DNA from: a bacterium
Lineage (GTDB): Bacteria > UBP18 > UBA7526
Direction of reading: 5' to 3'
Assembly (NCBI GenBank): GCA_030615855.1
Contig: JAUWYL010000022.1
Span: 1-22,650 of the forward strand
Length of the DNA stretch: 22,650 nt
The position numbers were made by a program, and so were the translations under genes. A model generated the notes under the pieces. That model was not told the DNA's origin. It searched no databases and saw only the letters and a list, made by a program, of their open reading frames with translations. Below, one piece after another: positions 1,529-13,244 of the stretch. Each line of letters opens with the position of its first letter. The stretch's first letter is position 1.

Positions 1529-2416
1529 TCAAACAAAGGGGTTGGGAACCTCCTTGATCTGACTATATTTAAAGACCGGCCCATCCTTACAGACATAGTA
1601 TCTTCCAATCATGCAGTGGCCACACTGGCCCAATCCACAGGACATATTCCTCTCCATGGAGAGATAGGTATTTTTTGGTGAGTATCCAAGGTCGATGAGC
1701 TTTAGGGTAGTAAACTTCATCATAATGGGTGGGCCACAGACAATGGCAATAGACTTCTTAAGATCGAGAGTAAGATTATTCAATAAGGTGGTAACCAGAC
1801 CAACCCTGCCCCTCCACTTCCTATCCCCCTTATCTACCGTAATGCGCAGCTCCACCCTTTCCTCTTCCCCCCATTTTCTCAGGCCCTTCTTATAGATTAG
1901 GTCTTTCGGGGTGCGAGCTCCATAACAGAGTAGGATCTCTTTATACCTATCTATATCATGCAAAAGGGTCAAGAAGAGGGATCTCAAGGGAGCAAGGCCC
2001 ACCCCTCCTCCTACAATCAGAATCTCCTTCCCCTTAAACTCATCCAGGGGATAGCCAGTACCATAAGGACCCCTCAGGCCAACCTTCTGACCCTTCTTCA
2101 GCTTATGTAATGCTTCGGTAACCCGGCCAACTTTCATTACCGTTACTTCCAGGGTCTCTTTCTCATGGGGAGAAGAGGAAGGAGTAAAGGGGGCTTCCCC
2201 GACACCGGGAACAGTTAGCTGGACAAACTGGCCTGCTTTGAACTCCAGAGGTTCTCTGGGGGATAGGAGGAAAGTCTTTATCTCTGGGGTCTCTCTAATA
2301 ATCTCCTCAATCCTTGCTTCAATGGGCAGGTAAACCTCGTTAGAAGTAATCCGTCCCTTTCGGGATCGGATGCCTCGCCTTTGACGAGGACTTCTAACGG
2401 GGTAAAGATTCCTCAC
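1529..2416 (-). CDS. FAD/NAD(P)-binding oxidoreductase with [2Fe-2S] site (sulfhydrogenase gamma / PyrK-like)
   Basis: The product is 295 residues. An FAD-binding barrel (about 32-125, with an APFTPSSS flavin loop at 75-82) is followed by a Rossmann NAD(P) domain with GGGVGLAP (136-143) and CGPP (227-230). A C-terminal [2Fe-2S] motif uses C260, C265, C268 and C276. This matches the HydG/ShyC and PyrK electron-transfer subunits that exchange electrons between NAD(P)H and iron-sulfur partners. The start is GTG at 2416, overlapping the TGA of the upstream gene as GTGA. Residues 2-28, rich in Arg and unlike the family, are encoded by a palindromic element (2335-2402). No in-frame ATG follows it before the conserved domain, so the element appears to be translated. 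It most likely pairs with the 2413-3435 product as a diaphorase module. Confidence 0.88.
   Translation of the reverse strand: MRNLYPVRSPRQRRGIRSRKGRITSNEVYLPIEARIEEIIRETPEIKTFLLSPREPLEFKAGQFVQLTVPGVGEAPFTPSSSPHEKETLEVTVMKVGRVTEALHKLKKGQKVGLRGPYGTGYPLDEFKGKEILIVGGGVGLAPLRSLFLTLLHDIDRYKEILLCYGARTPKDLIYKKGLRKWGEEERVELRITVDKGDRKWRGRVGLVTTLLNNLTLDLKKSIAIVCGPPIMMKFTTLKLIDLGYSPKNTYLSMERNMSCGLGQCGHCMIGRYYVCKDGPVFKYSQIKEVPNPFV
2335..2402 (-). repeat. 68-nt cloverleaf-like palindromic element inside a coding region
   Basis: The outer arms 2338-2347 and 2390-2399 pair perfectly over 10 bp, and extend to 2335/2402 with one G-T wobble. Inside are two further hairpins: 2349-2371 (ATCCG and TCCC pairing with GGGA and CGGAT around a TTTC loop, one bulge) and 2373-2389 (CCTCG/CGAGG, 7-nt loop). 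Together they make a three-way junction. The element lies in frame at the 5' end of the oxidoreductase gene and carries no stop codon in that frame. Confidence 0.8.
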
Positions 2417-3483: not shown

Positions 3484-3505
3484 GCAACGTTAAGTTTAAC
3501 GTTGC
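3484..3505 (-). terminator. Perfect 10-bp hairpin between rex and the next gene, terminator- or attenuator-like
   Basis: GCAACGTTAA and TTAACGTTGC form a perfect stem with a 2-nt loop. On the minus strand it is followed by TTTT and then GG, so the U-tract is short. It begins 16 nt after the rex stop codon. It could limit read-through from rex into the electron-transfer genes, or process the transcript. A second, bulged hairpin (3461-3485) overlaps its foot, so the two could be alternatives. Confidence 0.5.
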
Positions 3506-3521
3506 CATTTTTTCACAAACT

Positions 3522-4154
3522 TTATCTTCCTCTCCTACTTAAAAAGAATGAGAGATTCTCAAGTTTTAAGGAAAGATCGACATTACTCAGTCTGACATCT
3601 TTAGGTACGGATATTCTTGCGGGAGCAAAGTTTAAAATGGCCTTTATTCCTGCCTTGGTTAATAGATTAGCCACCTCCTGGGCTGCAGGAGCAGGCACGG
3701 TAATGATCCCTATCTCGGTTCTTTCCTTTCGGATGATGGGCTTTAACTGGGTGATATCGTGGATCACTATTCCTGCCCACTTTTTACCAATCTTCTTGGG
3801 ATCGTTATCGAAGACAGCAACGATATAAAATCCCTGTCTTTTAAAGCCTTTATAGGCCAGAAGAGCGCTCCCTAAATTTCCCACCCCTATCAGGGCTACC
3901 TTCCACTTCCTGGTCAGGCCCAGAATCTTCTGGATCTCTCTCTTAAGCTTTGTTGTTTCATATCCCATCCCTGGTTTACCGAACTGGCCAAAAAGGCTTA
4001 AGTCCTTCCTCACCTGGCTATCGTTTATATCCAACTCCTCTGCTAACTGATAGGAGGCAGTATTATCAAAACCCATCCTCCCCAGTTCATCTAAGACCCG
4101 GAGATAACTGGATAATCGAGCAATGGTTGTTTCTGGTATTTTGGTTTTCCTCAC
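3522..4154 (-). CDS. rex: Redox-sensing transcriptional repressor Rex
   Basis: Rex senses the NADH/NAD+ ratio and represses fermentative, hydrogenase and respiratory genes when NADH is low. The protein has an N-terminal winged helix (recognition segment around VRKDLSLFG) and a Rossmann NAD(H) domain with GVGNLG, followed by FDNDPKKIG, which binds the adenosine ribose. I place the start at GTG 4154 (210 residues). It is preceded at 8 nt by GGTGAGG, and the resulting N-terminus (RKTKIPETTIARL) matches the family. The longer ATG start at 4184 has no Shine-Dalgarno and sits 2 nt from a Rex operator. Two operators upstream imply autoregulation, and the downstream redox genes on the same strand are probable targets. 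Confidence 0.93.
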   Translation of the reverse strand: MRKTKIPETTIARLSSYLRVLDELGRMGFDNTASYQLAEELDINDSQVRKDLSLFGQFGKPGMGYETTKLKREIQKILGLTRKWKVALIGVGNLGSALLAYKGFKRQGFYIVAVFDNDPKKIGKKWAGIVIHDITQLKPIIRKERTEIGIITVPAPAAQEVANLLTKAGIKAILNFAPARISVPKDVRLSNVDLSLKLENLSFFLSRRGR

Positions 4155-4186
4155 CAACTTTTCCTCACCAGTATCCTTCCCCATAG

Positions 4187-4206
4187 TTTGTGAATTTTTT
4201 CACAAA
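4187..4206. promoter_or_regulatory. Rex operator, proximal site
   Basis: TTTGTGAATTTTTTCACAAA has perfect 8-nt arms (TTTGTGAA/TTCACAAA) around TTTT. This matches the established Rex consensus TTGTGAAWWWWTTCACAA. It lies 32 nt before the preferred rex start. Confidence 0.9.
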
Positions 4207-4224
4207 GTTAGGAAAAAAGAAGAG

Positions 4225-4244
4225 TTTGTGAAATTTTTCACAAA
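4225..4244. promoter_or_regulatory. Rex operator, distal site
   Basis: TTTGTGAAATTTTTCACAAA has perfect 8-nt arms. It is 38 bp from the proximal site, and both are followed by GTTAGGAAAAA, so the operator and its flank form a tandem duplication. It lies just downstream of the possible -10 at 4253-4260. Confidence 0.9.
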
Positions 4245-12976: not shown

Positions 12977-13142
12977 CTATCCTCACCATATAAGATACCC
13001 TAGCTATCATTCCCCTTATCTGGGGATTATCTTCTTTAATTACTGAGGAGCCTATCCTCTTCAAGCCCAGGGCCTTGATGGTCCTTCTGTGCCTCTCTTT
13101 CTTTCCGGCCAGGCTCCTGATCAATGTTATCCTTATCTTCAC
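12948..13142 (-). CDS. rpmD: 50S ribosomal protein L30
   Basis: The product is 64 residues with the start set at GTG 13142 ([20 protein letters not shown]). AGGAG stands 4 nt before this GTG, and the family begins here. An upstream ATG would add 18 non-conserved residues lying in a palindromic leader. The core [20 protein letters not shown] and [15 protein letters not shown] is standard. The last nine residues overlap rplO in another frame. Start codon and SD lie beside a hairpin (13162-13214) whose arm could also pair with the start. Confidence 0.95.
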
Positions 13143-13161
13143 CCCGCTCCTTTTGTTATTC

Positions 13162-13214
13162 ACCCCGCACTTTTCCGCTACGAAAGGATACTTCAAATGT
13201 AAAAGGTGCGGGGT
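13162..13214 (-). promoter_or_regulatory. Leader hairpin upstream of rpmD
   Basis: CCCCGCAC (13163-13170) pairs perfectly with GTGCGGGG (13206-13213), and TTTT (13171-13174) with AAAA (13201-13204) after one bulge. The minus-strand CCCCGC arm can also pair with GCGGGG overlapping the rpmD start (13142-13147), which would cover the GTG and the SD. Two alternative pairings are therefore possible. Confidence 0.5.
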
Positions 13215-13244
13215 TCACTCTCGCTCCTCTTTGAGGGGTGGGGT

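Follow-up and report, generated by a model that had tools for sequence, protein, structure and literature searches.

A palindromic element inserted in frame in an oxidoreductase gene and its probable relation to very small elements encoding a GIY-YIG nuclease

Results

The element at 2335-2402 and its host gene

The window analysed here, i.e. the whole stretch of 22,650 nucleotides of bacterial DNA, harbors on its minus strand (positions 1529 to 2416) a gene for a FAD/NAD-binding [2Fe-2S] oxidoreductase subunit, which was recognized by its open reading frame, its Pfam domains, and an orthologue without insert in the same-genus genome G002. The Pfam matches PF00970, PF00175, and PF10418 (FAD-binding, NAD-binding, and DHODB-type Fe-S domains) agree with the protein type given in the initial annotation. 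Near the start of this gene and on the same strand, a palindromic element of 68 nt is located at 2335-2402, which was assigned to a family of mobile elements with CCCCGTTAGA ends by its folding, its further copies, and a flanking 4-bp duplication. Its shape is a three-way cloverleaf built from the outer arms and two inner hairpins. Read on the plus strand, the terminal inverted repeats are CCTCGTTAGAAGT (2335-2347), with one mismatch to the family end CCCCGTTAGAAGT, and ACTTCTAACGGGG (2390-2402), identified by arm pairing. The perfect 10-bp arms (2338-2347/2390-2399) and the two hairpins described before were found in place, and the pairing reaches 13-14 bp with one mismatch. On the same strand, the hairpins at 2349-2371 (ATCCG.../...CGGAT) and 2373-2389 (CCTCG...CGAGG) follow from the predicted fold, and their stems covary among cloverleaf members. 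The calculated fold has an energy of -37.8 kcal/mol for RNA (z -6.1) and of -23.6 kcal/mol for DNA (z -7.5), and none of 200 shuffles was as good in either case. An exact TAAA abuts both edges (2331-2334 and 2403-2406) and indicates a target duplication, and the limits proposed beforehand are exactly those of the element. Its identity to other copies in this genome and the wider family is 81-90%. An Rfam search of the elements gave no match at E <= 5.

The frame of the host gene is open across the whole element, and the GTG start codon lies upstream of it and overlaps the stop codon of the preceding gene, as had been annotated. Regarding the translation of the element, the annotated coding in frame was correct, whereas the extent of about residues 5-27 has to be revised: residues 6-29 (PVRSPRQRRGIRSRKGRITSNEVY) are encoded, and element plus one TAAA amount to 72 nt, corresponding to 24 residues (P6-Y29) gained after Tyr5. 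Because these 72 nt contain no stop in frame, the insertion adds an Arg-rich peptide of 24 residues and does not destroy the gene. Examples of insert-spanning peptides are ...NLYPVR... and ...ITSNEVYLPIEAR. Removal of the element in silico restores GTG AGG AAT CTT TAC CTG CCC (MRNLYLPIEARIEE) and an N-terminus in which MRNLY is directly followed by LPIEARIEE. The orthologue from G002 is uninterrupted (MKNIYLPQLGKIKRV, MKN-IYLPQL...) and starts at the equivalent position, with ATG AAG AAC instead of GTG AGG AAT. The GTG start is therefore older than the insertion, which rules out the alternative that the element carried a new start codon into the gene. The palindrome is a mobile element that inserted into the oxidoreductase gene without breaking its reading frame.

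Further copies in the genome and the phylum

Two more cloverleaf copies with 81-83% identity were detected in the genome of the window, one in a gene for a YjeF NAD(P)H-hydrate enzyme and the other in a polysaccharide deacetylase gene. Both are translated in the same frame, as NPIGSPRQRRG... and NPVRSPRCKRG..., respectively. Both sites are empty in the relatives G001-G004 (8/8 alignments), which have a single copy of the target region each, and the nearest relative of the YjeF protein, that of G002, is 98% identical as protein and lacks the insert. The same end family is further represented in this genome by less similar copies on contigs C23, C30 (three sites), C35, C2, and C37, and all six genomes of the phylum examined carry copies. 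The earlier proposal, according to which the palindrome is mobile, resembles the palindromic elements of Rickettsia, and is accepted at the end of a protein, is supported by the further copies, the 4-bp duplication, and the empty-site orthologue.

Besides this family, a 51-nt palindrome with a second type of ends (CCCCGCACTTTT...AAAAGGTGCGGGG) was observed at 13163-13213 in the interval between the S5 and L30 ribosomal protein genes, flanked by exact TTCA at 13159-13162 and 13214-13217. A single arm of the same kind, preceded by TTCA (TTCA followed by CCCCGCTCCTTTT), is located at 13138-13160. In its minus-strand reading (AAAAGGAGCGGGG followed by TGAA), this arm appears to provide the L30 gene, which begins with GTG AAG ATA AGG ATA ACA (MKIRIT), with its GTG start as well as with AAGGAG, a Shine-Dalgarno-like sequence. 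Nested insertions were seen twice, namely a CCCGCACC-type palindrome within a CCCCGTTAGA cloverleaf (L027, G001:C71) and a CCCCGCCCC-type element within a CCCCGCACC-type element (G000:C30:90108-90225). Other inverted repeats of the window (TTTGTGAA...TTCACAAA, repeated at 4187-4244 and 3500-3520) look like Rex operators; they lie beside the gene at 3522-4184, which by its sequence resembles the redox repressor Rex.

Distribution and target site duplication

Species-level genomes were scanned with the exact pattern CCCCGTTAGA-N(20-50)-TCTAACGGGG, which occurred in at least 116 stretches; the matches listed comprise 122 distinct sites found by exact 10-bp arms. Assemblies of uncultured organisms make up nearly all data of this analysis. 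Among the matches listed are Patescibacteria, Omnitrophota, Planctomycetota, Cloacimonadota, Bacteroidota, Nitrospirota, Nitrospinota, Elusimicrobia, Riflebacteria, and deltaproteobacterial lineages. Rickettsiales were absent from the matches listed, the contig collection being sampled once. In a set of 193 genomes that covers the domain mostly with a single genome for each family, elements were present in 14 and the reversed control pattern in one.

An exact 4-bp duplication stands directly outside the element at 74 of the 122 sites among the matches listed, the other 48 having none. For the first 85 listed sites, 47 exact duplications of 4 bp compare with an expectation of about 0.5, and no comparable excess was found at k=3 or k>=6. 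The favored target among the matches listed is TNNA (TTTA, TAAA, TTCA, TGAA).

Reading-frame preservation and conserved shape

The length of the element equals 2 mod 3 at 80 of the 122 sites among the matches listed (p 6e-13), and such a length together with the 4-bp duplication keeps the frame. Within open reading frames of at least 150 aa, 56 of 57 listed copies belong to this class, whereas no bias is visible in contexts with open reading frames below 80 aa (25/21/17 copies for 2/1/0 mod 3; Fisher p 3e-13 for the difference, among the matches listed). There is some circularity in this coding test, as a frameshift would terminate the reading frame. Independent support for in-frame insertion comes from the empty sites and from Pfam domains that span inserts, i.e. 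residues 12-431 of EPSP synthase (insert 152-172), the 5'-3' exonuclease domain 46-231 of Pol I (insert 169-185), and the RACo C-terminal domain 385-662 (insert 453-470). Palindromes of this kind can thus lie in frame within genes, a behavior they share with Rickettsia palindromic elements. Five inserts (L064, L074 twice, L083, L150) precede the pseudopilin-type motif GFTLVEL and end in LTG, which restores the glycine before FT and results in GFTPLE...LTGFTLVEL. Since the TTTA target can be contained in GFT, this motif is a hot spot. A further element (L019, G001:C104) was noticed at the junction of the Memo and AMMECR1 domains within one open reading frame and may have contributed to their fusion or separation.

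In the 62-nt cloverleaf members, 96% of the inner pairs are kept and 11 of 14 inner positions vary on both sides, compared to 80% of pairs (maximum 95%) after partner shuffling; these figures are descriptive, as the set was selected for pairing. Different stem sequences do show the same predicted shape in different phyla.

Full-length elements encoding a GIY-YIG nuclease

The full-length relatives have 268-301 bp, the same ends (YCCCGTTAGA...TCTAACGGGR around the GIY-YIG gene), and a single gene for a GIY-YIG nuclease of about 90 residues. An example is a 277-bp element of a Parcubacteria genome (L119) with an exact CTCA duplication, in which one reading frame runs throughout, so that the arms are translated as PVR... 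and ...SLTG of the nuclease. PF01541 was matched above the Pfam cut-off in 5/5 nucleases scanned (E 7e-13 to 9e-17), and the catalytic residues Y9, Y11, Y22, R32, and E68 are invariant. The nearest solved relatives are the UPF0213 proteins (1zg2, 1ywl) and SLX1.

Nucleases of this type were found in 57 of 66 genomes, a set that consists almost entirely of element-bearing genomes and counts one genome twice (G004 = G079). Inverted ends (12 nt, at most one mismatch) flank 25 of 30 strong homologues compared to 4 of 311 shifted windows (p 6e-29), and ends plus an exact 4-bp duplication occur at 10 of 30 and 0 of 311, respectively. In ten contiguous stretches of about 0.77 Mb in total (two contigs of the window's genome and eight from other genomes), all three elements of at least 150 bp with ends and duplication are GIY-YIG elements. 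No DDE gene was found between the same ends in these stretches or in the scanned loci (0.83 Mb), and an insertion sequence of the DDE type was discarded since, in the scanned stretches, each element of this size class with ends and exact duplication held a GIY-YIG gene. Across 193 genomes, elements and strong nuclease matches co-occur (p 5e-9; outside the window's family p 5e-5).

The ends fall into several families (GTTAGA, GTTAAATA, GTGARATA, GCCC, GCAC, and ACAC types), which track the nuclease tree with 9 changes compared to a shuffled mean of 14.4 (0/200 shuffles as low); 9 changes were also obtained after trimming the arm-coded residues from the input. The interiors of the cloverleafs show no visible derivation from the nuclease gene, and a scan of viral_contigs for GIY-YIG gave 49 pattern matches and no confirmed relative.

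In the window's genome, no intact GIY-YIG gene with GTTAGA ends was found. A 92-nt element at C30:139241 apparently retains the C-terminal end of such a gene, and a decayed GIY-YIG element is present in the window's own family (G003, L178). The best GIY-YIG gene of the genome (G000:C35:39241-39498, L181) has inverted ends of the CCCCGCAC type and no exact duplication. The cloverleaf copies of this genome may rely on the enzyme of a relative or on a past one. Separately, the L181 gene is a possible partner of the second element family with CCCCGCACTTTT and AAAAGGTGCGGGG ends.

Discussion

Our favored explanation, to which we assign a probability of roughly 0.8, is that the palindrome at 2335-2402 represents a MITE-like, non-autonomous member of a family of GIY-YIG nuclease transposons, which are very small with a full length of about 270-300 bp. 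This derivation from a nuclease transposon is suggested by the identical ends and the same TNNA-type duplication in long and short forms, by deletion derivatives, and by ends following the nuclease phylogeny. Like bacterial MITEs, the elements are short and non-autonomous and show terminal inverted repeats (in the window copy, arms of 13 bp that pair with one mismatch), a target duplication of fixed length (4 bp, with a single copy at empty sites), and a full-length relative with the same ends and duplication (the GIY-YIG elements of 268-301 bp). Unlike bacterial MITEs, this relative encodes a GIY-YIG nuclease and not a DDE or HUH transposase, the interior often forms conserved hairpins, and many copies are located in frame in genes.

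Mobilization by the nuclease, as we infer it from the sequences, would start when the enzyme acts in trans on the inverted ends. It may recognize them in the form of extruded hairpins, as is suggested by SLX1, one of the nearest solved relatives, which is structure-specific. The nuclease would make a 4-nt staggered cut at the TNNA target, the element would be joined at the cut, and the gaps would be filled. Frame-shifting insertions would then be lost from genes, so that the in-frame length classes remain. GIY-YIG enzymes are known as hydrolytic nucleases, and thus the joining step counts against the nuclease-transposon explanation.

The most serious rival, though an unlikely one, regards the GIY-YIG gene as a passenger or homing-type parasite of elements that are moved by a separate unseen transposase, which would use the CCCC-type ends in trans. 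GIY-YIG nucleases commonly ride within other mobile elements, and the element-bearing genomes G130, G201, G252, and G003 (decayed there) are without a strong GIY-YIG match. On the other hand, the 0.77-Mb stretches and the 0.83-Mb loci revealed no gene of another type between these ends with an exact duplication, the nuclease is the sole gene of each full-length element examined, and the end sequence tracks the nuclease phylogeny across several end families. A homing endonuclease proper, with one conserved homing site and no duplication, is ruled out by the many unrelated sites with a 4-bp duplication. The enzyme resembles GIY-YIG homing endonucleases, UPF0213/YhbQ, and SLX1 (PF01541) in its catalytic domain with conserved Tyr/Tyr/Arg/Glu; it differs from them in that its gene is part of a unit of about 270-300 bp, which is bounded by inverted ends and a 4-bp duplication and occurs at many unrelated sites.

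Copying of the element RNA or of a hairpin single strand at a GIY-YIG nick, by a reverse transcriptase in trans or a host polymerase, appears improbable. The strong RNA folds, the covarying hairpins, and the GIY-YIG nuclease of the full-length form would suit such a retro-type process, the more so as Penelope-like elements are mobile and use a GIY-YIG endonuclease as well. The clean inverted termini and the constant 4-bp duplication, however, better fit an end-recognized insertion of DNA, and in contrast to the eukaryotic Penelope-like elements, which have a reverse transcriptase, no such gene was seen between the ends in the loci and stretches scanned.

Rickettsia palindromic elements (Ogata et al. 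2000, 2002) are described as about 150 bp long, present in many copies, and inserted in frame in unrelated genes (PMC10969869). The family presented here shares this behavior, i.e. short multi-copy palindromes in frame in unrelated genes that provide the protein with an extra peptide (56 of 57 long-frame copies among the matches listed). A membership in, or direct relation to, the palindromic elements of Rickettsia and Wolbachia is nevertheless very doubtful: the CCCCGTTAGA elements among the matches listed lie in other phyla, and the ends, the 4-bp TNNA duplications, and the GIY-YIG full-length form would set them apart, as would the length of 40-98 nt, the described value of about 150 bp (PMC10969869) being over twice the 68 nt of the window copy. 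Finally, an immobile palindrome, be it an ancient extension of the N-terminus or a chance inverted repeat subject to selection for RNA structure, would explain the strong folding but is refuted by the empty-site alignments and can practically be discarded in view of homologous copies elsewhere and exact 4-bp duplications.

Other known systems were compared as well. REP/REPIN sequences with their RAYT enzymes (Y1 HUH) are also palindromic, dispersed, and linked to a small nuclease; membership is ruled out by the exact 4-bp duplications, which to our knowledge are not known from RAYT/REP systems, and by an associated enzyme of PF01541 instead of Y1 HUH. Integron attC sites are excluded since their simple-site order is opposite (RYYYAAC ... 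GTTRRRY, here GTTAGA ... TCTAAC), and the direct 4-bp duplication stands outside the GTTAGA ... TCTAAC ends. No earlier description of these elements was found in the open-licence literature. In a study of a 77-bp repeat of Porphyromonas gingivalis, CCCCGTTAGA belongs to a synthetic oligonucleotide and seems to be unrelated (PMC3969353), and the MITEs of Thiomargarita belong to a different family, with 10-bp direct repeats at the hupL MITE and TATA ends at the dsrA MITE (PMC4853749).

Conclusions

The spread of the family and a full-length form with the GIY-YIG gene alone point to an undescribed type of transposon. We consider it fairly probable that this is a new bacterial transposon superfamily, whose sole protein would be a GIY-YIG nuclease of about 90 residues and which would combine coevolving ends, TNNA duplication, palindromic derivatives, occurrence in many candidate phyla, and in-frame insertion remodelling proteins. 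The known enzymes of prokaryotic transposition comprise DDE, HUH, tyrosine or serine recombinases, and Cas1. If true, a transposon equipped with a GIY-YIG nuclease alone would form an additional class and, with about 270-300 bp, would be among the smallest autonomous transposons known. The family accounts for the Arg-rich inserts PVRS...SNG and TPLE...LTG that occur in proteins of uncultured phyla, among them those at the recurrent pseudopilin site, and offers a concrete candidate explanation for the spread of protein-coding palindromes in Rickettsia.
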